A DNA stretch of 64,000 bases, from positions 1 through 64,000 of the forward strand of contig CAMVOS010000007.1 of the NCBI GenBank assembly GCA_947169185.1, written 5' to 3'. How positions within the stretch are numbered: position 1 is the first letter of the stretch; every line of letters begins with the position of its first letter. Below, in pieces: positions 7,651 through 20,449 of the stretch. Both the position numbers and the translations under genes were made by a program. The notes beneath the pieces are model-generated. The model did no database searches. It was given only the letters and a program-made list of their open reading frames with translations, and was not told where the DNA came from. This DNA is from an uncultured Prevotella sp. Lineage in GTDB: Bacteria; Bacteroidota; Bacteroidia; Bacteroidales; Bacteroidaceae.

Positions 7651-7998
7651 TTACTCATAGAGTTTCATGACATCCTTCAAAGCTGTGCTCCCCGGATTGT
7701 CATGCTCCTGTTGGAGGGCGTTGTGCAACTGGTCAATGGTATAGCCGCCGCACATCTGGGTCAGTCCGTCATCCTGACTTCTTTCGTCATTTGATTCCTT
7801 TGCCAAAGGGATAGAGTCCCTGCTGATCTTCACAGGCTGGTACTTTTCCACCTCGCCCGTGATGTCCACCTCTTCCTCTATCCTCAGCTCATCACTCAGC
7901 AGACTGCCCTTACTGAAAAACAGGTCGTGAATGATCTGATAGGCATAATAGATGACGTAGCCCGTAATGATAATCGTCAATAGTGTCGTGAATTTCAT
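7651..7998 (-). CDS. Single-pass membrane protein, first gene of the tra operon
   Basis: The 115-residue product has one N-terminal membrane helix (about 4-26) followed by an acidic, hydrophilic tail containing MCGGYTIDQLHNAL. It is the first gene after the putative tra promoter and occupies the position of traD in CTnDOT. I see no motif that would let me name it. The 123-nt gap to traE contains a CCTTCGGGGGGCTTGGTGGGG stretch, a GC-rich island in an otherwise AT-rich spacer. Confidence 0.65.
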   Translation of the reverse strand: MKFTTLLTIIITGYVIYYAYQIIHDLFFSKGSLLSDELRIEEEVDITGEVEKYQPVKISRDSIPLAKESNDERSQDDGLTQMCGGYTIDQLHNALQQEHDNPGSTALKDVMKLYE

Positions 7999-8041
7999 AG
8001 TATTCTCTTTCTTATTCTATTCGTGTTTCTCAAATGCGCTG

Positions 8042-8073
8042 CAAAATTACATCGTTTTTCCAAAACACGATGT
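8042..8073 (-). promoter_or_regulatory. Candidate tra operon promoter with inverted-repeat operator
   Basis: On the minus strand TAATTTTG (8042-8049) matches the Bacteroidetes -7 element TAnnTTTG, about 44 nt upstream of the first tra gene. A perfect 7-bp inverted repeat ACATCGT/ACGATGT (8049-8055 and 8067-8073, 11-nt spacer) sits immediately upstream of the -7 box, where a repressor would block RNA polymerase. I do not see a good -33 TTTG at the right spacing. Confidence 0.5.
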
Positions 8074-8121
8074 GCTTTTTTCGCCTTTATATACTTTTCA
8101 TTCCTCCTTCACCTCCAGACA

Positions 8122-8152
8122 CAAAAAAACACCGACCCATCACGAGCCGGTG
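8122..8152 (-). terminator. Rho-independent terminator of the replication operon
   Basis: The minus strand reads CACCGG...CGGTG followed by TTTTTTT. It lies 43 nt downstream of the stop of the 266-aa gene and just upstream of the tra promoter, so it separates the two operons. The stem is short (5 bp), but the U-tract is strong. Confidence 0.65.
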
Positions 8153-8194
8153 CCTTTCCATTTTTATTATTAATCTCTAATCGTATGATCACTT

Positions 8195-8995
8195 TTATTC
8201 TCTCACCTCATGGTTGCCTCGCTCATAGCAAGGTCTTACCTTATAATTCTTGGTGAGCAGTAGCCAGATATAATAGACTCCATCATAAGTCCACTGTATT
8301 TCTGCTTTACCATCTGCTCCTGTCTTGATCACAGTATAGCCTCTGTCCTTGAAGCTCTCTGTCAACTCCCAGGAGGAATTACCTTCGTCATCTTCATCAA
8401 CATCAACGATAACACCATTCTGTTTCAAAGTACACAGCAAACCCTCTTCTGGCATACCGAAAGAATCGGCAATGGATGATGTGCTCTCTGAGAAGCCAGA
8501 CTTACGTATGAATTTGTCAAAGCAGATCTTGGCATACAGGTCGCCACAGCATTCCATGACTCCGTTGTGCCGGGAATCCCGTTTATTTGGCTGATAACCA
8601 TTGATAGGCACCTGAACGATTCGCATCTTGCCATCTGCATTTAGCTCACGTCTGGTCTCATAGTGTACTGGGATGTCGAAGATGGTCATCTGCTGTCTGT
8701 AAGTAGTATCACAGAAACAGGCGAGCAACTCTAGCGTCTTGTCCTGCATCACCACATGCTGGGTGAAACCCTGCATACACATCAGGTAGTCATCACCGTC
8801 GGGACTCTTCTGATACGAGAAGCCCTCCACGCCATTCTCTAGTAGTTCTTTCACTGCCTCGTCCCACGAGGAAAACGCAAGGGCGTATGTTTCCCTTAAA
8901 CTGTATGGAAACAAGTCACCATGCAAGAAGCACTTAAAAGTGCGAAGACAGTAGTCTTCGAAGCCCTCACCGGAGGGCATAATAAATGATTCCAT
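8195..8995 (-). CDS. Hypothetical protein of the mobile-element replication operon
   Basis: The 266-residue soluble protein is not recognised. It is acidic (VDVDEDDEGNSSW) with several Cys residues, and it has no membrane segment or signal peptide. It is the last gene of the run that begins at 11409, and a terminator follows. The operon position suggests an accessory function of the conjugative element. No catalytic motif is visible. Confidence 0.6.
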   Translation of the reverse strand: MESFIMPSGEGFEDYCLRTFKCFLHGDLFPYSLRETYALAFSSWDEAVKELLENGVEGFSYQKSPDGDDYLMCMQGFTQHVVMQDKTLELLACFCDTTYRQQMTIFDIPVHYETRRELNADGKMRIVQVPINGYQPNKRDSRHNGVMECCGDLYAKICFDKFIRKSGFSESTSSIADSFGMPEEGLLCTLKQNGVIVDVDEDDEGNSSWELTESFKDRGYTVIKTGADGKAEIQWTYDGVYYIWLLLTKNYKVRPCYERGNHEVRE

Positions 8996-9033
8996 AATTT
9001 TAAATGTTATGATTATAATTGATTGTATTTCTT

Positions 9034-9492
9034 CTATGCGGCCTTGGGGTGCGGCTGAGTCAGAAAGTTGGCAGTCACATGAACGCTCACCATCCTGGCT
9101 ATTTCGTCAAGGTAGGATTGCTGCACATGGAAGTCATTGGGAATAAACCCGTCGATATAGTCCTTTGGCCAAGACTTTAGCGACAATCGCCTACAGGCAA
9201 ACTCTTCATTGAAAGGCAGGTTGCAACGCTTGGCCTGGATATAGCCGATAAGGATGTTCTTCAGCACATCCTCAAAGGATTTGTTCTCCACTCTCACAGG
9301 TCTACGGTCATTCTCCACCTGACGGACAAGCATCATTCGTCTACTGTCACTCAGTTCTCCCAATAGGAAGGCCGAATTCAGCAGATTGCCCTTCATTTTC
9401 CTGACCTTGTGGGTATTTCCGATTTCTACCTCGTAGGTTAGTTTCTCCAACTCATTCAGTCGGAGTCTTTTCTCTTCACTCAACTGTTTCAT
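9034..9492 (-). CDS. Hypothetical basic protein of the replication operon
   Basis: The 152-residue protein is basic and largely helical (KQLSEEKRLRLNELEKLTYE at the N-terminus), with no signal or membrane segment. It sits 8 nt after the DnaC-like ATPase gene and 38 nt before the 266-aa gene. The composition would fit a nucleic-acid-binding or replisome accessory protein, but I cannot assign a family. Confidence 0.6.
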   Translation of the reverse strand: MKQLSEEKRLRLNELEKLTYEVEIGNTHKVRKMKGNLLNSAFLLGELSDSRRMMLVRQVENDRRPVRVENKSFEDVLKNILIGYIQAKRCNLPFNEEFACRRLSLKSWPKDYIDGFIPNDFHVQQSYLDEIARMVSVHVTANFLTQPHPKAA

Positions 9493-9500
9493 AGTACTGA

Positions 9501-10268
9501 TTAATGTTTGTTTGAATATCCTGTATCATAATCTTTTTCACTTTTCACTATTAACTCTTCACTTTTCACTTCCGGGTGGTGGCTATACCAAGCCAATTTC
9601 CGAAAATCAACATTCTCAAAGTGTATATAATATGCCATTTCGTTCATTCTGGAAACGATTCTTAGTCCCAGATGCTCCCTCAGCTGATCACTGTCGAGAT
9701 TGGTACTCACCACCATGGGAAGACGCAACTTATAGCGTTCCGTGAAGACATTTCTCAGAGGATAGAGCGGATTGCCCCATCGGAGTATCTCGGCTGGTTC
9801 ACAGCCCAAGTCCTCGATACCAAGGTACGACGGCCAAGTCACAAGTTCGTTCCACTCTCTGGTAGAATCTATCAGGGTGCACAGTTTGGTGGCATCGCAG
9901 ATCTTTAAGTTGACATCCTCCGACAGCAGCCTGTTTTCCACCAGCCACCAAAGGGTTTGTCGCATGGCCTCCATCAGCGTGGTCTTTCCCGTAGCAGTAC
10001 TGCCGTCCAGCACAATCATGAAGCGATTGTCATTGCTGTCGGTCAGGAAATGGGCCAGCTTGCTGATGACACCACTGGTCAGGTTATTGGGGACGTAGGT
10101 GACCCTACGATGGGCAACCTGTCTGCGATAAGCCATCTCCAACAGTGCTGTCAGCCCCTCTTCGTCCACGCCTATCTTAGAGCGGTCGGTCATACCCGGC
10201 AGCAAAAGAGTCCGTCCTTGACGCTTCAACTCCTCTACGAGGGTCTTGATATCCATTGGTTGTCCCAT
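9501..10268 (-). CDS. DnaC-like AAA+ ATPase (helicase-loader type)
   Basis: The 255-residue protein has a Walker A motif (GSTATGKTTL, about residues 89-98), a Walker B-like IEDLG and the sensor-type LPMVVSTNL. This is the arrangement of DnaC/IstB-like ATPases that load replicative helicase. A second ATG at 10256 (MDIKTL) is an alternative start. The first 92 nt overlap the preceding initiator gene in another frame. The C-terminus (VKSEELIVKSEK) is encoded by the GTGAAAAGTGAA repeat and probably represents a repeat-derived tail rather than part of the ATPase fold. Confidence 0.78.
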   Translation of the reverse strand: MGQPMDIKTLVEELKRQGRTLLLPGMTDRSKIGVDEEGLTALLEMAYRRQVAHRRVTYVPNNLTSGVISKLAHFLTDSNDNRFMIVLDGSTATGKTTLMEAMRQTLWWLVENRLLSEDVNLKICDATKLCTLIDSTREWNELVTWPSYLGIEDLGCEPAEILRWGNPLYPLRNVFTERYKLRLPMVVSTNLDSDQLREHLGLRIVSRMNEMAYYIHFENVDFRKLAWYSHHPEVKSEELIVKSEKDYDTGYSNKH

Positions 10269-11091
10269 ACGTCTGTGTTACTTGCTTGTTTCGATAAAAA
10301 TTCTCCAGAACTTTCTGAAAGTGCTGCGGCATCATGATCCAGTCGAAGTCGGCTATCCAGCCCTTTTGTCCCTTTCCGTTCAGGAAGTCACTGGCGGCTG
10401 CATTCCTGATGGCCTGCTTCACGCTTTCTTTATCAACACCCGTTTGCGCTATCAGCTGTTCGTATGCTTGTCTGCGTTCAGGCGTTTTTAGTGCCACCTG
10501 CGGAATAACTTTTCCCTTCATCTGCTGATTGAAGAAGTCTATAATCTCATCGAAATCATTTTCAAAAAGATTTCTCTCAAATATTTTAGCCACCGCCTCC
10601 TCGCGCGTACGCGCTCCTCCTCCGGCTATAATATTTATCTTTTTATCAATAAAAGGTGTAAGGTTCACTTGGGGGTACATCTGGCGGTCAACTTCGCCGT
10701 CAAGGTTTACCGCATCCTTTACCTCGGACTTTACCTCCAAATCAGCCCAACCGAGCTGAGTAATAGTAATTATCGACTTATGGTTATCGGTCTGTCTCTC
10801 AATAAGTTTGTCTTGCTCCAATCGTTGCAAGAACCTGATTACCGTAGGCTTGCTGACACCCCACTGCTTTACCAGCGAGTTGACCGTTACGATGACCTGT
10901 CTCGCTTGGAGGTAAACCTGTTGGCGGTTGAACCAGACGGTTTTCTCCGTCCAACTGGCTTCACGCCTGAGCCACGTCCACCATTTCAGGTAGCGCTCAT
11001 CATGACCTACCCATCCATCCAGCACAACCATGGGAATGGTGATAAACCTGGCCGTGCGCTGCTGTTGATCTTCCGTTTCTTCGTTTCTCAT
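10177..11091 (-). CDS. Winged-helix replication initiator-like protein
   Basis: The 304-residue protein has an N-terminal region resembling phage replication organisers (RQQVYLQARQVIVTVNSLVK) and a winged helix-turn-helix (VKQWGVSKPTVIRFLQRLEQ, about 75-100). The C-terminus is helical, with Trp-rich DWIMMPQHFQKVLENFY at about 250-266. Such proteins open origins or recruit a DnaC-type loader, and here the loader is the next gene, overlapping by 92 nt. Together they suggest an autonomous replication module on the conjugative element. A G+C-rich inverted repeat (GCGCGTACGCGC) lies inside the gene around 10603 and could be part of an origin. Confidence 0.72.
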   Translation of the reverse strand: MRNEETEDQQQRTARFITIPMVVLDGWVGHDERYLKWWTWLRREASWTEKTVWFNRQQVYLQARQVIVTVNSLVKQWGVSKPTVIRFLQRLEQDKLIERQTDNHKSIITITQLGWADLEVKSEVKDAVNLDGEVDRQMYPQVNLTPFIDKKINIIAGGGARTREEAVAKIFERNLFENDFDEIIDFFNQQMKGKVIPQVALKTPERRQAYEQLIAQTGVDKESVKQAIRNAAASDFLNGKGQKGWIADFDWIMMPQHFQKVLENFYRNKQVTQTYGTTNGYQDPRRGVEASRTDSFAAGYDRPL

Positions 11092-11121
11092 AACTCTAAA
11101 CTCTCAACTTTCAACTCTAAA

Positions 11122-11409
11122 CTAGAGTAAGCTCTTGCATTTCACTGCTGCAAACGCTGCCTCAATCTGAAACTTCGAATAATAGTAAGGCGAGTTCTGA
11201 CTGGTTCCCTTCTTGAAGCCCTTAATCAAGCCTTTCCGCACCATCGCGTCAAACTTCCTACTCATCTTACTGTCATTACCCAGCCAGGCTCTTACCTCTG
11301 AAGCCTTCAGCTGGTCTTTCACAGGATCGAGCTTCTGCACCGCTGACAGTGCTCCAAGTGTGGCTGCATTCGTTAGCATCGCCTGTAAAGTTGTCACTGT
11401 TATGTCCAT
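11122..11409 (-). CDS. Small winged-helix-like protein, first gene of the replication operon
   Basis: The 95-residue protein is helical, with a segment (ASEVRAWLGNDSKMSRKFDA) that could form a DNA-binding helix-turn-helix, followed by basic residues. It is read from a recognisable minus-strand promoter at 11536-11567 and faces the XRE/S24 regulator. This is the place usually taken by a Cro-like or replication-control protein. No family is recognised with confidence. Confidence 0.6.
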   Translation of the reverse strand: MDITVTTLQAMLTNAATLGALSAVQKLDPVKDQLKASEVRAWLGNDSKMSRKFDAMVRKGLIKGFKKGTSQNSPYYYSKFQIEAAFAAVKCKSLL

Positions 11410-11478
11410 CTTTCTACCTTAAATTTTTTGCATTTATATTAAAATATAATATTCTTAATAACTTTTTTGCATTTTTAC

Positions 11479-11509
11479 TTGCATATATCGGAGCAAATGC
11501 TTACCTTTG
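11479..11509 (+). promoter_or_regulatory. Promoter of the XRE/S24-type regulator gene
   Basis: TTG at 11479-11481 and TACCTTTG at 11502-11509 match the Bacteroidetes -33/-7 pattern with a 20-nt spacer. Transcription would start near 11516, about 105 nt before the ATG at 11622. TTGCAT boxes (11428, 11468, 11479) and an inverted GCAAATGC (11493) surround it and are candidate operators. Confidence 0.7.
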
Positions 11510-11535
11510 CACCCGAACAGCGTTTAAAACGGCTG

Positions 11536-11567
11536 CAAAATTACAACTTTTCAGAATATTCACAAAA
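11536..11567 (-). promoter_or_regulatory. Promoter of the replication operon
   Basis: On the minus strand TTTTG (11563-11567) and TAATTTTG (11536-11543) lie 19 nt apart, as in a Bacteroidetes promoter. The start site would be near 11529. It points toward the plus-strand promoter at 11479-11509, so the two transcripts cross one another (a face-to-face arrangement). Confidence 0.7.
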
Positions 11568-11621
11568 CGAATTTAAAGTTTCATTCCTACAAATCATAAT
11601 ATTTTAGAATTTTTAAGCATT

Positions 11622-12302
11622 ATGACAACTGATAACGAACAAACTACCGTGCAGGGCGTTGCAGAGAGATTCGCCCAAGCAGCAGAAGAACTGCGTCTGA
11701 CAGGACGACAGTTATATCGTGACGGAATCGTCGCAAACGACCAAGTTCTGAGCAAAATCACGCATGGTTGGCAGAAGCCTACTAAGAAAGCTATCGAACT
11801 ATTCTGTCAGAAATACGGTGTAAGTGCAGCATGGATGTACACTGGTGAAGGTAACATGTATATAGGCAGAACTATGCCATTTGCCCCCACCATGGAAAAC
11901 GTAGAAGGGAAACTGTTCTATAACACTGATTTCAAATTATGTATCGACAATCAAGGGGAGCCTATACCCAATGGGGAAGAAAAGCCCATATATGTCCCTC
12001 AAATAGGTGTTGTTGATTTTTGGTGTTTAAACCTCGACGACTCTCTGGCACCAGCTATCATGCCGGGTGACATGATTGCCTTGAAGAAATTTTCCACATG
12101 GAAGGAGTATTTACCTGGTGATTTCGATTGTATCGTTGTAACAAACGGATTCAAAGTGTTACGCAAGGTTTCTGCAAAACAGGACGACGAACAAAGCATT
12201 GTTTTTATCCAGATGATTGACGGAAAACCCGTAGAGTCCAAGATTCCTAAAAACATCATCGTCGAGATTTACAGTGTTGTCTGCAATCTGCACCGCAGGT
12301 AA
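11622..12302 (+). CDS. XRE/S24-type (CI/LexA-like) transcriptional regulator
   Basis: The 226-residue protein has an N-terminal XRE-like helix-turn-helix region (about 10-80, ending AAWMYTGEGNMY) and a C-terminal S24/LexA-like fold. The serine region is visible (DDSLAPAIMPGDMIAL, Ser about 141). The usual catalytic lysine motif (VKRL-like) is replaced by GFKVLRKV, so autocleavage may be lost or altered. It is the only well-supported plus-strand gene in the window and faces the replication operon, as a phage-type repressor would. By analogy it should repress transfer or replication genes and respond to DNA damage or an antirepressor. That role is inferred. Confidence 0.82.
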   Translation: MTTDNEQTTVQGVAERFAQAAEELRLTGRQLYRDGIVANDQVLSKITHGWQKPTKKAIELFCQKYGVSAAWMYTGEGNMYIGRTMPFAPTMENVEGKLFYNTDFKLCIDNQGEPIPNGEEKPIYVPQIGVVDFWCLNLDDSLAPAIMPGDMIALKKFSTWKEYLPGDFDCIVVTNGFKVLRKVSAKQDDEQSIVFIQMIDGKPVESKIPKNIIVEIYSVVCNLHRR

Positions 12303-12324
12303 CCGTCACCTCCGAAAACGACAC

Positions 12325-12365
12325 ATCCCCCGACTCAGTCCACGAAGAACTGAATCGGGGGATGC
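12325..12365 (+). terminator. Long hairpin after the S24 regulator
   Basis: CATCCCCCGACTCAGT and ACTGAATCGGGGGATG form a 16-bp stem with one mismatch and a 9-nt loop, 22 nt after the regulator stop. There is no T-run on the plus strand, so it may be a bidirectional or factor-assisted terminator. Confidence 0.55.
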
Positions 12366-12424
12366 CCATTAAATGACATATAGACGACTGAGTTCATCAA
12401 CCCTCAGCCATCATCCATCAGACT

Positions 12425-12571
12425 TTATACATCATCCATCTTCCTTCTTTTCAGCTCTTCATTCACCAATCCTACGGGCATACCTTTCCCATAACCCAGA
12501 AAACCTCCGAACCCAAAGTCCATGAGGTAAGCCGGTATTCCCGTATACTCCGAATTATAGAGCTGTCTCAT
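12425..12571 (-). CDS. Small Gly-rich hypothetical protein (48 aa)
   Basis: This short ORF is not in the ORF track. It starts MRQLYNSEYTGIPAYLMDFG, contains a Gly-rich hydrophobic stretch (FGFGGFLGYGKGMPVGLV) and ends in charged residues. It lies 84 nt downstream of the small helicase-associated-domain gene on the same strand and could be the last gene of the defence operon. Its 3' end runs into a CATCATCCATC repeat. No family is recognised and no Shine-Dalgarno sequence is obvious. Confidence 0.35.
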   Translation of the reverse strand: MRQLYNSEYTGIPAYLMDFGFGGFLGYGKGMPVGLVNEELKRRKMDDV

Positions 12572-12655: not shown

Positions 12656-12889
12656 CTATTCATATTGATTCTTCCTCCTATATTGTTCCGTCAATTCCAG
12701 AAGCTTTCTAAACTTCTCCACCCTTTCCAGCTTCAGCGTCCCAGCATTCATCTGCTTCCTGTTATGCTTCAACCACGTATAGTATTCACCTCTCTCTTCC
12801 GCATCATACTTCGAGGGATTGCGCTTATTGGTCTCAATAAACGTCATCACCTCATTATATCTTGCAATCCACTTCTCGTCCTGCGTCAT
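12656..12889 (-). CDS. Small helicase-associated (HA)-domain protein
   Basis: The 77-residue protein has the pattern W..RYNEVMTFIE....P...GEYYTWLKHNR, followed by a helix ending ERVEKFRKLLEL. This resembles single copies of the helicase-associated domain (PF03457-type) that are common in Bacteroidetes. These small domains probably bind nucleic acid. It starts 6 nt after the HEPN protein stop, so it belongs to the same operon and may be an accessory or antitoxin-like partner. The role is inferred from context. Confidence 0.6.
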   Translation of the reverse strand: MTQDEKWIARYNEVMTFIETNKRNPSKYDAEERGEYYTWLKHNRKQMNAGTLKLERVEKFRKLLELTEQYRRKNQYE

Positions 12890-12895
12890 ACCGCC

Positions 12896-14422
12896 CTAAA
12901 CTTTTTCATCATCTAAGACATCGTTCACATACTCTTCCATCACAATGCCCTGCTTCCTCGCCTCCACAATCTTGTCATACTCAATATGTTTCACCGCATT
13001 CACAAAACAGAAAACGGCCTCTCTCACAGTCGCTATCAGATTCATCGCCACTTCTTCAAACTCACCGCGAGAAATAGTCAGCACAGCGTCATTATCCTCC
13101 ATCAGTCCATTATCAACTATCTGTATAGCCCTGTGCTCCATAGCATTCCTTACCTTCTGCAGATTCTTGGTCTCTTCTGCCTGAAGATAGTATTCATTCC
13201 CACCATAGATATCATTTCTGATAAACAGCAGCCCTGCTAAGGAAATCACCGTTGAATGATTAAGAATCTCGGGTCTTATATTCCTACCTTTCTTGTCGTT
13301 ATACCACAATCCTTTAAACGAGACATCCTTACCGTTTATCCCAAGCCCCAAATATCCATTCAGCGCAAAGGCAATCTTATCCAATAAAGAATACAGTGAT
13401 CTGAAAGCAGCCTTTGCCAATTCTACATGATAGGAATAATTGGAGTAATCCAATACGTCCGCCAACTGCACATTCTTATCTGAGAAATGCACCTTCCCCG
13501 TCTCCTTGAAATAGGAATATAGCATAAACCTCGCAGACACATACTCCTGTTTGATTTCATTCAGCAGCGACATCATCCGATAACTATCATTTACAGCATC
13601 CTTAACCGTATATAACGAATCGAAATAAAGGCTGTCATCCTGTGAATAAAGCGAAGCGGGGGTTATCTCATTATATCCATTCAGACGCAGATAGTTCTCA
13701 TTCACCCACCTATTGTATTCGTCCTCTTCCGATGTCCCATATTCTACGTTCTTCTCATCTAGCGAGGCAGGTGTTTTCAGTCCGCTTATCCTGCGATACA
13801 TATCTCTGGCAGATTGAGTCGTTTCTGGCTTGTTCAGGAATTGCTTCAAAAGTTCCTTTGCTTTCGCCACCACAAACGGTTGCACTCGTTCTTCATAATA
13901 GCCAAACATCCCTCCAAATGAGAATCCTATATTGAACTGCCACATATAGTCGTTGGGCATCAACAGTCCAGCCTTAAAATAGGAATGTAAGGCTTCTTGG
14001 TGCCGTCCCAGATGATCATACACATTTCCCAAATGCACGTAAGCTTGGTATTCACACCCCTGTACAGTATTATACAGTGTCCATATCTTCTTTCTTCTCA
14101 CCTCATCTGCAATGCGCAATGTCATCCTATAGCAGAATAACTCCTTCATCACCAGCGGGTGATTATACATTGCTTGCGATGGGTCTTGGGTGAAGCATTT
14201 CTTGGTGTTACAGGCCTGCCCCAGAACATAGTACGACATCAGCCTGTCATATGTATTCAGCTGTCCTCCCTTTAGCAACGTCTCAACGCTGTTAATGATG
14301 GTGTCAACTTCTCCAACAGATTTCTGTCCAGCTCTGACTTCATTGATCGATGAGCCAAATCCTTTCAGTTCCTCTGAAGTCTTTGTCACCTCCGATTCTT
14401 TCAACTGTTCCTGTACGTCCAT
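12896..14422 (-). CDS. TPR-containing LA2681-like HEPN protein (predicted RNase)
   Basis: The 508-residue protein has TPR-like helices at about 124-170 (YQAYVHLGNVYDHLGRHQEA). Its C-terminal helical domain carries an Rx4H motif at about 425-430 (RNAMEH), preceded by LDKIAFALNGYLGL. This combination fits the LA2681-like HEPN family. HEPN domains with R-x4-6-H are usually metal-independent RNases acting in abortive defence or toxin-antitoxin systems. It lies 14 nt after the PD-(D/E)XK-type gene and 6 nt before the HA-domain gene. Family recognition is from motif and layout by eye; RNase activity is inferred. Confidence 0.72.
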   Translation of the reverse strand: MDVQEQLKESEVTKTSEELKGFGSSINEVRAGQKSVGEVDTIINSVETLLKGGQLNTYDRLMSYYVLGQACNTKKCFTQDPSQAMYNHPLVMKELFCYRMTLRIADEVRRKKIWTLYNTVQGCEYQAYVHLGNVYDHLGRHQEALHSYFKAGLLMPNDYMWQFNIGFSFGGMFGYYEERVQPFVVAKAKELLKQFLNKPETTQSARDMYRRISGLKTPASLDEKNVEYGTSEEDEYNRWVNENYLRLNGYNEITPASLYSQDDSLYFDSLYTVKDAVNDSYRMMSLLNEIKQEYVSARFMLYSYFKETGKVHFSDKNVQLADVLDYSNYSYHVELAKAAFRSLYSLLDKIAFALNGYLGLGINGKDVSFKGLWYNDKKGRNIRPEILNHSTVISLAGLLFIRNDIYGGNEYYLQAEETKNLQKVRNAMEHRAIQIVDNGLMEDNDAVLTISRGEFEEVAMNLIATVREAVFCFVNAVKHIEYDKIVEARKQGIVMEEYVNDVLDDEKV

Positions 14423-14436
14423 CTTACTACCAACAT

Positions 14437-16494
14437 CTATTTCCCAGACACGTAAGCCAACGTGCCCACCAAGGAATTACTGCTAAGAAAATGCGCTATC
14501 GTGAGCCAGTTCTTAGACTTATTCTTTTTTATCTCGTCCAAACTGACCGCTTGAATAAAACTATGCACTTCTTGTTTGGTACCCATCTCCATCACGACAA
14601 ACGTAAAACCGAAATCTCCTTTGCGGAAGCAATAGTACTCATCTTTACCAGCAGCCCCCTTCTGGAGAAGTTCGTTAATCTTCATTCCTATTTGCTTCAC
14701 CTCATCTCTACTGAAATTCAGAAGGCCAAGGACTACCTGGCCCAATCCGTAATGAGGAGATGAGTCGATCTCCTTTACAAGCGCATCGAATGTTCCATTC
14801 CGCCACGCACTATTATCCACCGTTACATCCTTATGTTTTGCATACTGAGGTAAGAGTTCTGCATCTATCGCTTTCGCATACGAGTTATCAAACATAAACG
14901 CATCATACTCACCCCCCTCCAGATTTAGCCGATTATAGGTGTATGCAGCCAGACAATTCAATTCTACATCTGTGCGGGTATTGTCATAATGTTTCTGGCG
15001 ATTGTGAACATAATGCATAAAATAGTAAGGCTCATTCAAATACAAGCCCATCACACTTACGTCAAATACATTAACGGCAAGTGCGGCTGGTTCCGATGGT
15101 TCCCTGTTCAGCAGTACTGCCATTTGATGCGTCAGCGATGGATATTCATCCGAAGTTTCACAAACAATATAGACCTCTCGAAGCGACGGAAGAGTAATTG
15201 TTTGCCGTGTCTTCTTATCCTCAAATCTGTAATCAGTTTGATGAAGCAATGCCTCTCTGCATTTTAAGCCCTGTTTGTAAGCTGCTTGAAAACTCTTCGT
15301 GAAATCCTTCCGTATGGATTCAAGATTCCCTTGTCGTGATGCAAGGGTCAATCCTTTTGACTTTATCTGGAAACAAATAGCATAGTCCTTCCAGATACAC
15401 AATGCATCAATATCGGTTTCTTGATTTTTCCCTTTACAAACAATTACATCCTTATAACAGTTCTTTCCAAATATGCCTTTCAGCACTCTCAACGTCTGAA
15501 CTTCAGAGAAATCGCCCGTATGCGAACCTATCTTTTTGTGTTCGTCAAGCTGCTCATACAGCCAGTACCTTGGCGTATCATACATGCTCTTAAAAAGCTG
15601 TTGTGCCTCTGACACAAGATAGGAGCCAACAGACGTTTTTATAACAGGAGATGACATCAAGATGCTTAAGTCTCCTGGTTCTTTACATGCTTCGTTACAG
15701 CCTTTTGATGGTTCTACACTGAATAGCTTAAGGTAGTTCTCAGCACCATCATATTCAACTATATCTTCCTTTGTAAAGGAAATAGCGTCCTTGAGTCTAT
15801 CACAGAATTCCTGTATAGTCAGTTGCTCTTCTTGGTTATAGAAGAACTGCCAAAGCGTCAACTCCTTCCGAAATTGTTCTTCTGTCAATTCAGAAGGCTT
15901 ATTTTTCAACTGTTGCTCCCAGGTTTCGGGTAAGGATTGCAGCCTGAAACGCCTAATCTTATTCCACACCGTCTGTTTTATTTTACTGGCTATATCGCAG
16001 AACTCATCCTTATCGTAGCCTTTATGTTCTTTCAGCCATTGGTCATCCTCTTCATAGCGTTTCTTGGTGTAGTAGATATACTCCTCATCATACAAAGCGC
16101 CACCACTATAGAAGATGGCTTCTTGAAAAACCGCTCCGTCATAATAAGGCTTAAACTCTGCGAGTTTTCCATTCATGATGTCTTGTACGTGCGAAGCAAC
16201 TCCCGAAAAGAAAGTGAAATGCAATTCTTCCATGAGACGCGGAATTTCACTCCTCATAGAATAAAGTTCATCGAAATCAGATGGATACTGCCAGAAATCC
16301 CCTTTATTCACCAAAAGGCTCCACAGGAAAAGAATCTCATTAGCAGAAAGCCGCTCTTGGTTATTCCTTTTCTCAATGTTGACGGTTGCTATCGACTCAT
16401 CTTCTATCTGAGCCATTATAAGAGCATAAACAAATCCCTTCTTTGAGATAAGTTCATCTATCTTCTCCAGTACCTGACGCATTTCATTATTCAT
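14437..16494 (-). CDS. Large protein with a NERD/PD-(D/E)XK-type nuclease domain
   Basis: The 685-residue protein has an all-helical N-terminal half. A restriction-endonuclease-like core lies at about 326-410, with GDFSEVQTLRVL (E331), ETDIDAL (D361/D363) and CFQIKSKG (Q376-x-K378). The spacing matches NERD/Mrr-type PD-(D/E)XK nucleases, with Gln replacing Glu in the last motif, which is tolerated in many families. The C-terminal 250 residues are not recognised. It starts 4 nt after the stop of the trypsin-STAND gene, so the two are almost certainly co-translated. It is a plausible DNA-cutting effector of the island. Nuclease activity is inferred from motifs. Confidence 0.7.
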   Translation of the reverse strand: MNNEMRQVLEKIDELISKKGFVYALIMAQIEDESIATVNIEKRNNQERLSANEILFLWSLLVNKGDFWQYPSDFDELYSMRSEIPRLMEELHFTFFSGVASHVQDIMNGKLAEFKPYYDGAVFQEAIFYSGGALYDEEYIYYTKKRYEEDDQWLKEHKGYDKDEFCDIASKIKQTVWNKIRRFRLQSLPETWEQQLKNKPSELTEEQFRKELTLWQFFYNQEEQLTIQEFCDRLKDAISFTKEDIVEYDGAENYLKLFSVEPSKGCNEACKEPGDLSILMSSPVIKTSVGSYLVSEAQQLFKSMYDTPRYWLYEQLDEHKKIGSHTGDFSEVQTLRVLKGIFGKNCYKDVIVCKGKNQETDIDALCIWKDYAICFQIKSKGLTLASRQGNLESIRKDFTKSFQAAYKQGLKCREALLHQTDYRFEDKKTRQTITLPSLREVYIVCETSDEYPSLTHQMAVLLNREPSEPAALAVNVFDVSVMGLYLNEPYYFMHYVHNRQKHYDNTRTDVELNCLAAYTYNRLNLEGGEYDAFMFDNSYAKAIDAELLPQYAKHKDVTVDNSAWRNGTFDALVKEIDSSPHYGLGQVVLGLLNFSRDEVKQIGMKINELLQKGAAGKDEYYCFRKGDFGFTFVVMEMGTKQEVHSFIQAVSLDEIKKNKSKNWLTIAHFLSSNSLVGTLAYVSGK

Positions 16495-16498
16495 AATC

Positions 16499-19400
16499 CT
16501 ACATCCCGTACCTTATCTTCATAAAGTCCTCACGGTTCTTCTCCATATCCAGCAACTTCTTCTCATCAGCTATGCACTTATCAGCCCATTCCCGAACTTC
16601 AGGTTTCGGATGCCCCAACAACTTCTCAAAACACTTGATGTTTCGTGCGTAGTAACTGGACACATCGTTTCCATACCATGAGAATGTTCCCAGGTTACTC
16701 GATATACTGCTTCTCACGTCCTTCTGTTCGCCAAAATTATCCAGCAACCATATAATCCACTTGTTAAATCTGCCAGTTTCCTTGCCATTTTCATCATACT
16801 CAAAACAAGGAACCATAGCGGCAATCCTGTTCGGACCAGATTCTGGGTTGTCTATGCACAGTTGCTTAATCAGCTTCTCGTCTATATCGAACAATGGCCC
16901 TTTACCAAAGCCAAATCCCGAGCCTAGTTCGTCCTTCACCTGGTAATAGAACAAGAATGAATCGGGGCCTAACAGAGCTTTTGCGAATTCCGGCCATACA
17001 GCATCAAAATAGTCTTTCAATAACTCTGTAAAGACCCCCTCCGTACTCAAATGAACCATCTGGGTATTATATACTTCTATAAACTTTTGGTTCACCAGCT
17101 TGGCAAATTCAACATCATGCCACAGTTGAAGCGTCTCAACTAGAATGCGACTATACTCATTGAGCATACGACCATTGTCGCCGTCAATCTTATAATTGAG
17201 TAAAGCCTCTTTTACAATCGCTATTGATTCGGGATGGTCATCTTTTCTCATCGTGAAACGCTCGGTTTCAACGTATGCCACCAGCTCGTTGGGACGATCT
17301 GGGAAATTCTCTTTTAATGCCTTAAGCAATAGAAGATATCTTTCATCTCCATATGATCTGAAGAAGTGCAGATATACGGGCAGGAAATCCGTTTTCAACA
17401 AACCTTCCTTTTGTTCTGTCAGCAATTGACAAAACTGTCCTAAATCAGCATTTTCCGTTCCAGCCATCAGCGAAATATAAAGCTGTTCCCGTCCATTATT
17501 TCTCAGTTCAGTAAGGAAATCAGCCAAGGGGTTTCTGTCCTTTGAATAGTATGCTAGATTACCCAAGAATGGACTATAGAACTCTTTGGGTTCTGATGAT
17601 AATATGCCCTCAATTGTTTTATAAAGACCTACTAACTGCTCGTCAGAGGAGATTGTCGCCAATGGCCTTACGAAATCTATCGGAATGTACTCTTTGTCTT
17701 CCAGCAGTTTTCTTACTTCGTCAGCATCAATATAAACTTTCTTATCAAAGAAATCTACAGCCAGAGGAGAAAATAGTGTTTCTGACAATTTCATCTGCTC
17801 TTTATCGCCCAGATGATACTTCCCATGTAGTTTATAGAGAGCCTCATTGAGCCTTGTCTTAAACGAACCACCTCTCAATTTTTCCATTAGCACATCTACA
17901 CCCAAGGCCTTTGCATCAATGCCAAAGTTATAAACAGTTTTGGCCAGAGCCTCATATCCCTTATCCCATTGATATCCTTTCGCTTCTGCAATCCTTTCCA
18001 ATAATGGTATAAGAACATTCTTCTGACCTCCTCTCGCCCAGTGATAGACATTTTCTTCCACTACTTCTGCTATCAAGTCCACCACTTCGGGATTCCGGTC
18101 CATCCATTCCAGCAAAAAGTTTCGACAACCATACCAATATTCAAATATCTCATTCCATGTATCCGGAGTATAGTCTTTCCTGTTCTCAAAACCGAATTTT
18201 TCTGCTCCTCCCATTTTGGTGAACCCACCATTTCTTAGCGCAGCAGCAAAACAGCGAACCGTTAGAGCCATATAATCTTCACTTTCATAGGTGAGCCCTC
18301 CAAGGGTTTGCAGACGTTCATGTAAATTCACCTCTGTTCCTGCAAGTCCAATATGGAAGAGCTGAATCAGCTGTCCTGTGGCGTTGTTGCCTATATCTTC
18401 ATTCTCAGCAGCAGCCAGACGTGCCATTACAACAACGCCATCGTGGTAGCTTTCATGTGCGAAGCAAAGTCTTTCCAAAGCCCAAACCACATTCCGTCTT
18501 CCATCTCCATCGAAATGATCTCTTAACCAACCTATGTCTTTTTGTCCTAAAGTTCCTCTAAGATTTGCTGCAATGGCGGCAGGGTTCACCGTACTCATTG
18601 CGAGGAAAAGCTTAGAACCCAAGCCAGAACACAGGTTTTCCTCGTCGAAAAAAGGGTGGTTCACGTCAGCATTCACCAGTCTTTCCACCATCTTAAAGGC
18701 TTCCTTGTTTCCTGACATCTGCTGAATATGCTTACAGAATCCTTCGCTGATTGCGTTCTGTACCCATTCGGGCTGTTCTTTTATATGGTTTATTAGTTCC
18801 TTGAAGTGTATTGGAGTGTTACAAACGTTCTTGAACCACTCTGCCGTCAACCATACAGCCAGGGGAAATGGTCTCACATAAAGCCATATTCCCTGCACGT
18901 CTATAAGCGTTGGAAAATACTTCTCTACTAATTTCCCGGCTATACTTCTGCGTTCGGTGAACTCCATTCCGTTCAGTGGGGTCACGAGATTGTCCTTTAT
19001 GAGATATTCAAACCCTTCGTGAGCAGCATCCTGGTATGGGAATGGCAGGCAGAGTGATAGGGTTTGCCACACTCTTTTTTCCTCTTCTTCTTTGCCTGCT
19101 GTCAAATCTAGTAGCTTTGGCATGAGGTGCGCCACGGCTTCAGGTCCTGCTGTGTTGTCTTCCTGATATGCCTTTATCAGTTCCAATGCCATCTGAGGAT
19201 ATCCTTCTGCCAATTTTTGAATTTCAGCTACATCATTCTTATTGTTTTCATTTTCTTCCAGTTTCTCACTGATGTATTGATTAACCCTATCGAGCATTTC
19301 TTCCGGCTTCAGTTTTATCACTGGAAATGATTTGATATTGTCAAGAGCATCATTGAAATAATCGTGATGGACCATAATGAGTCGAAACTGGTCGTTTTTT

Positions 19401-20449
19401 TGATTCCTGATGCTTATCAATATAGAAACCATTTCCATTGGGCAATCATCCACTATGATAATCCCATCATTACCATGATTTTGGATGAGTATCTGTTTCA
19501 ACTCGCCCGTTAACTGCTCCTGGTTATTATTATATTTTGCATAGTATCGGTTGGGTTCTCGTTCAGTACCTTTGAATGCTTCGTAAATGAGTTTCGACTT
19601 GCCCATACCCGACAATGCGGTCAACAACAGCGTCGGTTCATCGTCATCTCTGAGCTGATTGATAATCTCTTTTGTCCTCTCGTTTTCTATGAAAGGACCC
19701 GTCTGGTTCAATTCATAACCTGATTGGTCAAGAGGATTCAACAGTTTACGACTATCGATACTATTGGCTATACCACTGTCTGCAATATAATCAAAGTCTC
19801 TATTCTCCACAATTCCGTCAAACAAACCGGTGGATAAGAATTTCGAAGATGGCATACATACAAACTCGTTGTTGTTTCCATCATACCTCCCCACTTCCGA
19901 CATATAGGCGGCCATATACAGCACATTCGATGAATCTTGATAGAAAATACCTCCTCCTGACGTACCCTCAAAATTAATCACGGGTTCCAGACTCTGTACA
20001 TTCAATTGAATATTAATAACTGCCCAGCTGTTTTCTCCTCTATGTTCGAAAGCGTAATGTTTTGGTACCTTGTCGCCTTTGTGAAAGCCACAAAACTCTG
20101 CTGGTCCGTTAACGCTTGACGTTAGGAGCCTTACTCTGTCAATGCCAGAAAGAGACGTATCGCCCGAATAGGTAGCAAGCATTACCGTAGCATCATCCTT
20201 TCTGTCGTAATAAACAACCTTTGCAACCTTAAAAACAAGTTTCCGGCTGTTTCTTGTCATCGACACACCTATCTGGTCTTCGTCCAGATATCCGTCTTTT
20301 GCATCGTTCTCTATTACGTGGGCGGCAGTAAGTATATAGACAACATCTCCAACAGCGACGATGGTTCCCGAACCTTCGCTACCGTTGGAGCACTCTATTT
20401 TTACCGTGACCTTCTTCAGGTCTCGAATGTTTGCTTTCGTCAGATTCAT
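16499..20449 (-). CDS. Trypsin-like protease fused to a STAND NTPase (Avs1-like)
   Basis: The 1316-residue protein begins with a trypsin-like protease whose triad is visible: H44 in TAAHVI, D86 in KDDATVM and S164 in EGTSGGGIF. A P-loop STAND NTPase follows, with Walker A ALSGMGKSKL (about 278-287) and Walker B IIIVDDCP (about 330-337). The remaining 800 residues are helical and repeat-like, the usual sensor half of STAND proteins. It overlaps the MBL gene by ATGA and is followed after 4 nt by a nuclease-like gene. AVAST type 1 systems contain an MBL protein, a trypsin-like protease and a STAND protein; here protease and STAND are fused. By analogy it should sense a phage protein and trigger cell suicide. 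That outcome is inferred. Confidence 0.85.
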   Translation of the reverse strand: MNLTKANIRDLKKVTVKIECSNGSEGSGTIVAVGDVVYILTAAHVIENDAKDGYLDEDQIGVSMTRNSRKLVFKVAKVVYYDRKDDATVMLATYSGDTSLSGIDRVRLLTSSVNGPAEFCGFHKGDKVPKHYAFEHRGENSWAVINIQLNVQSLEPVINFEGTSGGGIFYQDSSNVLYMAAYMSEVGRYDGNNNEFVCMPSSKFLSTGLFDGIVENRDFDYIADSGIANSIDSRKLLNPLDQSGYELNQTGPFIENERTKEIINQLRDDDEPTLLLTALSGMGKSKLIYEAFKGTEREPNRYYAKYNNNQEQLTGELKQILIQNHGNDGIIIVDDCPMEMVSILISIRNQKNDQFRLIMVHHDYFNDALDNIKSFPVIKLKPEEMLDRVNQYISEKLEENENNKNDVAEIQKLAEGYPQMALELIKAYQEDNTAGPEAVAHLMPKLLDLTAGKEEEEKRVWQTLSLCLPFPYQDAAHEGFEYLIKDNLVTPLNGMEFTERRSIAGKLVEKYFPTLIDVQGIWLYVRPFPLAVWLTAEWFKNVCNTPIHFKELINHIKEQPEWVQNAISEGFCKHIQQMSGNKEAFKMVERLVNADVNHPFFDEENLCSGLGSKLFLAMSTVNPAAIAANLRGTLGQKDIGWLRDHFDGDGRRNVVWALERLCFAHESYHDGVVVMARLAAAENEDIGNNATGQLIQLFHIGLAGTEVNLHERLQTLGGLTYESEDYMALTVRCFAAALRNGGFTKMGGAEKFGFENRKDYTPDTWNEIFEYWYGCRNFLLEWMDRNPEVVDLIAEVVEENVYHWARGGQKNVLIPLLERIAEAKGYQWDKGYEALAKTVYNFGIDAKALGVDVLMEKLRGGSFKTRLNEALYKLHGKYHLGDKEQMKLSETLFSPLAVDFFDKKVYIDADEVRKLLEDKEYIPIDFVRPLATISSDEQLVGLYKTIEGILSSEPKEFYSPFLGNLAYYSKDRNPLADFLTELRNNGREQLYISLMAGTENADLGQFCQLLTEQKEGLLKTDFLPVYLHFFRSYGDERYLLLLKALKENFPDRPNELVAYVETERFTMRKDDHPESIAIVKEALLNYKIDGDNGRMLNEYSRILVETLQLWHDVEFAKLVNQKFIEVYNTQMVHLSTEGVFTELLKDYFDAVWPEFAKALLGPDSFLFYYQVKDELGSGFGFGKGPLFDIDEKLIKQLCIDNPESGPNRIAAMVPCFEYDENGKETGRFNKWIIWLLDNFGEQKDVRSSISSNLGTFSWYGNDVSSYYARNIKCFEKLLGHPKPEVREWADKCIADEKKLLDMEKNREDFMKIRYGM

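Follow-up and report, generated by a model that had tools for sequence, protein, structure and literature searches.

Conjugative transposons of the CTnDOT type carry RteA/B/C-type control genes. In SXT/R391, SetR controls the conjugative element, and similar ICE repressors likewise combine a helix-turn-helix (HTH) with an S24-like part. To our knowledge, no control circuit of the kind considered here has been described for a Bacteroidetes conjugative element. Comparable layouts are found in phages. In phage 186, pL is subject to interference from pR, and the promoters of P2-like phages are placed face to face with 40–60 bp of separation (PMC7498355). In the CI/MOR switch of TP901-1, the promoters are back to back (PMC7250872).

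The window analyzed here is the whole stretch of 64,000 nucleotides of Prevotella DNA, and positions refer to it. The mobile element in the window is conjugative, as the earlier note on this DNA had proposed: it contains genes for a TraG P-loop ATPase, DUF4134, and DUF4133. The gene order is common to the element copies in genomes G269, G044, G255, and G728. The copy in G728, a one-contig genome, additionally encodes a coupling protein, DUF4138, ArdC, and a topoisomerase. All these genes are shared with CTnDOT-type transposons. The Bacteroidetes-type tra set is present in the window itself, and the coupling protein is known from the orthologous G728 element, the contig of the window ending short of it. 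With the tra gene set and the coupling protein, the element belongs to the Bacteroidetes conjugative elements. Unlike in CTnDOT, no RteA/B/C-type genes are seen adjoining the switch, where a phage-like regulator and a RepO/DnaC-like module are found instead.

The switch lies in a 212-bp intergenic region between two divergent genes. One encodes the CI-like regulator of 226 aa (11622–12302, plus strand), with an N-terminal HTH and a degenerate S24-like C-terminal domain. The other encodes a 95-aa protein (11122–11409, minus strand), which opens the opposing operon and occupies the position of Cro, Cox, or Apl. It is followed on the minus strand by genes for a DnaD/RepO-like replication initiation protein (10177–11091; PHROG replication initiation protein, E 1.3e-18), a DnaC-like helicase loader (9501–10268; PHROG DnaC-like, E 5.6e-12), and a conserved protein of 152 aa (9034–9492). 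The two PHROG matches support the replication module that had been predicted opposite the regulator. The 152-aa gene is syntenic in G269, G044, G255, G728, G081, and G155, and its product was assigned to no family in a PHROG-type search. The final gene ahead of the tra promoter encodes a 266-aa protein (8195–8995, minus strand) with a weak KilAC antirepressor domain at its C-terminus (Pfam ANT, E 8e-4, under the curated cut-off). The tra operon begins with the gene at 7651–7998 (minus strand), and the DUF4134, DUF4133, and TraG ATPase genes follow. The genes flanking the switch thus have the form of a phage-style module, in which a CI-like regulator stands opposite a small winged-helix-like gene and the RepO-like and DnaC-like genes. 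An Rfam scan of 7900–12500 found no family. At 8121–8153, a terminator-like hairpin with a T run separates the KilAC-like gene from the tra promoter, and it is kept in related elements.

The consensus of Bacteroidetes primary-sigma promoters is TTTG near −33 and TAnnTTTG near −7 (PMC7366714). Two putative promoters of this type face each other in the intergenic region. The plus promoter, ahead of the CI-like regulator gene (11479–11509, plus strand), is composed of the −33 element TTG (11479–11481), a 20-bp spacer, and the −7 box TACCTTTG (11502–11509), and its predicted start is at around 11514–11516. The minus promoter, ahead of the replication operon (11536–11567, minus strand), is composed of the −33 element TTTTG (11567–11563), a 19-bp spacer, and the −7 box TAATTTTG (11543–11536), and its predicted start is at around 11529–11531. 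Both agree with the sigma-ABfr type, with TAnnTTTG at −7 and TTTG or TTG some 19–20 bp upstream. The −7 boxes are separated by 26 bp, and the predicted starts are about 13–17 bp apart. Judged from the predicted starts, these are opposed promoters with overlapping early transcribed regions, as in P2/186-type switches. The earlier note had claimed such an overlapping pair with starts near 11516 (plus) and 11529 (minus), and both predicted promoters sit where it had placed them. A sigma-70 promoter scan misses both, and is uninformative here because the promoters are of the Bacteroidetes type.

The overlap of the opposed promoters is further upheld by its rarity and its conservation. When the 212-bp intergenic region was shuffled 5000 times with dinucleotides preserved, no complete pair, defined as TTG-N18-22-TAnnTTTG on each strand in face-to-face orientation, appeared. 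A sample of 464 kb of Prevotella DNA contained four complete pairs against 0.1 expected from shuffles; this sample consists of fetched stretches, partly picked for carrying orthologues, and its informative point is the absence of further pairs. The four pairs are the locus in the window and three orthologues, and the idea that complete face-to-face pairs are a generic feature of Prevotella was rejected. Face-to-face pairs of −7 boxes only are mildly enriched in the same 464 kb (15 against 3.1 expected). The strict pair TANNTTTGC/GCAAANNTA is seen at five places in the window's own genome, and at none for the reversed control.

A genome search yielded relatives of both the regulator and the 95-aa gene, and seven orthologous loci were aligned across the whole intergenic region. 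Six of them are clearly distinct, and G189 is a near-duplicate. The distance of exactly 26 bp between the −7 boxes is kept in all seven. The plus promoter keeps TTGCA and TAnCTTTG in the six distinct loci as well as in the near-duplicate. The −7 box of the minus promoter is invariant at 8 of 8 positions in the orthologues, and its −33 box is partially conserved, in two of five columns. The stretch between the −7 boxes (11510–11535) has the same length of 26 bp in the seven loci, with 16 of 26 positions invariant, and it can be read, when the ends of the −7 boxes are included, as an imperfect, weak dyad, TTTGCACCCG/CGGCTGCAAA. Distant homologues of the gene pair, 26–32% identical, are found in G081, G155, and G642. 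There the −7 boxes are still face to face, at 31, 34, and 34 bp, and therefore the architecture outlives the sequence. On this sequence evidence, the pair is a real, rare, and conserved promoter arrangement.

In the coliphage 186 pR/pL and P2-like switches, as at this locus, a repressor-like gene and a small gene have promoters that face each other (PMC7498355); the small gene is of the HTH type in the phages and putatively so here. Here, however, the arrangement belongs to a conjugative element, the promoters are of the sigma-ABfr type, and 26 bp lie between the −7 boxes, while P2-like promoters are 40–60 bp apart. The likeness is one of layout, and the sequence evidence does not establish membership in the P2/186 class. 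TP901-1 also resembles this locus in having a small opposing regulator, and among solved structures its CI is the one most closely related to the regulator's HTH; its promoters, however, are back to back and not face to face, and the 95-aa protein has no detected sequence relation to it.

The HTH of the regulator matches the PHROG transcriptional repressors (E 8e-6) and the profile of the N-terminal domain of TP901-1 CI (E 3e-4). These matches are weak and consistent, and point to a putative HTH repressor gene on one side of the promoters, as in P2/186-type switches; the earlier claim of a CI-like regulator on one side is borne out by them. The match to Bacteroides phage repressors covers 65 residues, the HTH only. 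No relatives of the regulator were found in the plasmid collections or viral contigs searched. Its C-terminal part aligns with S24-like regulators from other genomes of the family. In all ten members of the regulator family, the catalytic lysine is replaced by leucine while the serine is kept in the regulator itself, and 13 canonical S24 relatives, three of them confirmed as Peptidase_S24, retain both serine and lysine. The Ser-Lys catalytic pair of the self-cleaving LexA/CI class of S24 proteins is thus missing from the regulator. In a Pfam search, the regulator had no match, and one of ten relatives was matched at E 0.034, with the curated threshold of S24 not reached. The earlier description of the regulator as an S24 protein therefore appears right as to descent, but probably not as to activity, with the catalytic lysine lost. 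For the same reason, RecA-type self-cleavage and a lambda/LexA-style SOS switch are unlikely, and SOS-type control of the switch is judged unlikely from the sequence. By description, the regulator resembles SetR of SXT/R391, and it differs from SetR in having lost the lysine. The AlphaFold model of the regulator (pLDDT 64) is too weak for its fold to be matched with confidence.

The 95-aa protein is far better conserved among the orthologues than the regulator (85–87% against 60–67% identity). Its AlphaFold2 model is winged-helix-like with a moderate pLDDT of 76, and its matches to MarR-type folds are weak, none being significant.

A candidate regulatory box, GGAATGAAA-CTTTAAATT, is located at 11570–11587 (minus strand), with 35 bp between it and the downstream −7 box of the minus promoter. 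It is also within the predicted 5' leader of the plus transcript, just beyond the interval of the earlier note (11424–11567). On the minus strand it reads GGAATGAAAnnTATAAA. The part TTTCATTCC (11579–11587) is invariant at 9 of 9 positions in the alignment, while the neighboring parts vary. In the window, TTTCATTCC recurs once, at 8096–8104, directly upstream of the tra operon. It belongs there to a second copy of the box, GGAATGAAAAGTATATAAA (8086–8104, minus strand), which lies upstream of the tra operon promoter and is near-invariant in five elements. At the matching tra site, G269, G044, and G728 have TTTCATTCC, and G255 and G189 carry GGAATGAGA instead. The putative −7 box of the tra operon, TAATTTTG (8042–8049, minus strand), is without a conserved −33 box, and none was found at the tra promoters of related elements. 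The box is separated from the −7 box by 35 bp at all of the switches and by 46 bp at all of the tra promoters. The difference, 11 bp, is about one helical turn. Unlike in 186 and P2-like phages, the conserved box is upstream of, and not over, the replication promoter, and a copy of it is found at the tra promoter. These sequence features suggest that the switch and the tra operon are connected through the shared box.

The exact 18-mer is found in 7 of 398 genomes of the genus, and every one of them has the element; in one of those surveyed, G035, the tra end of the element is at a contig edge. Since the exact 18-mer was seen only together with the element among the 398 genomes, a host-wide factor is disfavored as the binder. 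Outside the element, an exact GGAATGAAAAGTATATAAA with the 46-bp spacing is seen on contig 33 of G189 (L110, 11266–11328), ahead of an uncharacterized operon for proteins of 99 and 166 aa. In G269, a solitary paralogue of the regulator (L052 9702–10397, contig 24), located downstream of a 342-aa gene, has GGAATGAAAAGT, in which the second half of the box is changed, exactly 46 bp ahead of its own −7 box. This paralogue is 55–57% identical to the regulator, with a near-identical HTH segment, QVLSKIK-GWQKP. A near-match, TGAATGAAAAGTATAT, with a 46-bp spacing to TACCTTTG, is also present on contig 6 of G081 (L116, 23421–23483), flanked by a 370-aa ORF that looks tyrosine recombinase-like by eye and by a 284-aa gene.

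When 84 genomes were searched for the box followed at 46 bp by a −7 box, three matches were in elements and seven elsewhere, and the reversed control gave none. One of the seven is in a genome of the genus without a known element, and six are in other families; several are within coding sequence, and some background therefore exists. Chance often gives a pair of AT-rich regions one 9-mer in common (1326 of 2000 shuffles), and such a match is not significant alone. The weight of the box would come from finding it repeatedly at fixed spacing in elements that are themselves related by descent. In form, it resembles direct half-sites spaced by 11 bp more than a palindrome, and a CI-type dimer with such a site would be unusual.

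These features could be combined as follows. The control region of this Bacteroidetes conjugative element would contain two primary-sigma promoters face to face, one for the CI-like HTH regulator and the other for the small winged-helix-like gene and the replication operon. Judging from the geometry, polymerase on either promoter would lie across the −7 box of its counterpart, and the two could not be in use together. GGAATGAAAnnTATAAA would be recognized by a regulatory protein, for which the CI-like regulator is the likeliest candidate, both upstream of the replication promoter and ahead of the tra promoter, where the site is more distant by one helical turn. The position of the box fits activation of both replication and transfer, and its upstream placement with a fixed helical phase favors activation over repression. 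With mutually exclusive switch promoters, a rise in activity of the replication promoter would at the same time lower that of the regulator's own, and the loop could be self-limiting, and not a plain repressor lock. We infer the mutual exclusion, the identity of the binder, and the sign of control, and likewise any bistability. The model as a whole, an exclusive promoter pair in a P2/186-like layout that is coupled to tra via a shared box bound by the regulator, is given slightly less than an even chance. It can be speculated further that a non-cleavable CI-like activator turns on replication and transfer via the shared box while its own gene is silenced by promoter exclusion, giving a self-limiting pulse rather than a stable lysogeny lock; this version is rather unlikely.

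The binder and the sign of control could be different. The CI-like protein might be a plain repressor, as in the lysogeny of P2 and 186, which binds near 11570–11587 or between the promoters, silences the replication promoter, and is relieved by the KilAC-like antirepressor. The resemblance of its HTH region to phage repressors and the possible KilAC antirepressor domain encoded in the opposing operon are in line with this, and P2-like phages have their repressor gene on one side of face-to-face promoters (PMC7498355). However, the conserved box is upstream of both minus promoters in a fixed helical phase, and the tra box, 46 bp from its −7 box, is too distant for overlap with the contacts of the polymerase core. 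A plain repressor is accordingly a possible but somewhat unlikely explanation. Alternatively, the GGAATGAAA box might be bound by the 95-aa protein, the KilAC-like protein, or a host factor, and the CI-like regulator would act elsewhere, for example at the dyad between the −7 boxes. The 85–87% conservation of the 95-aa protein, compared with 60–67% for the regulator, matches the invariant box, every genome with the exact box has the element, and Apl-type proteins, which occupy the equivalent position, bind direct repeats that are spaced by one helical turn (PMC7498355). Against such a binder, the solitary paralogue in G269 has the box at its own promoter with no other element genes adjoining. 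Since this paralogue has a near-identical recognition segment, the CI-like regulator is the leading candidate on sequence grounds, with the 95-aa protein as a serious alternative; the solitary sites in G269 and on contig 33 of G189 do not single out the regulator, because these genomes also carry the 95-aa gene and the element. A binder other than the regulator is considered unlikely.

Two further readings concern the promoters and the sites between them. In cells, a single promoter might be active and the other be a functionless consensus match, and the conservation of the minus −33 box in two of five columns would agree with this. Yet both −7 boxes and their exact spacing are kept while the neighboring intergenic DNA is not, and each promoter precedes an intact gene start, which makes a single active promoter very improbable. 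The earlier note had itself proposed that the regulator binds TTGCAT/GCAAATGC boxes to form a bistable lysogeny switch. Three TTGCAT and one GCAAATGC indeed exist within 75 bp, and of 3000 shuffles of the 212-bp region, 6 gave three or more TTGCAT, which makes the cluster an unusual one for this single sequence. Across the window, TTGCAT is under expectation (37 observed, 56.65 expected). The operator role found no support, however, since the orthologues have zero or one TTGCAT and the boxes are not conserved: the invariant positions are 0 of 6 in the box at 11428, 1 of 6 at 11467, 2 of 8 at 11493, and 5 of 6 at 11479. The sole conserved one, at 11479, is the −33 element of the plus promoter. 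The boxes were rejected as operators on this ground, and a switch based on them is extremely unlikely. The conserved box at 11570–11587 is the better operator candidate.

Under the favored model, in which the shared box couples an exclusive promoter pair to tra, the locus would be a compact and testable circuit, with two opposed promoters in 212 bp and a second copy of the box at the tra promoter. Should the box and the promoter exclusion act in this way, a phage-style decision circuit would be wired to conjugation. Its activator logic, if true, would be unlike that of P2/186-type switches.

Several other genes are located near the switch. A 77-aa protein is encoded at 12656–12889, near the regulator, and is kept in G269, G044, G255, G728, G081, and G155 with 67–86% identity. 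Three proteins are encoded in the adjoining segment at 12896–20449 (minus strand): one of the HEPN_LA2681/TPR type (Pfam E 1.8e-54), one of 685 aa in which a NERD nuclease domain is weakly matched, and one of 1316 aa with no Pfam match. These genes resemble cargo, possibly for defense, and the content of this slot varies among related elements. On the tra side of the related element in G728 (L113, 17954–19967), a SMODS nucleotidyltransferase gene lies beside a gene with a SAVED domain, in a CBASS-like arrangement.
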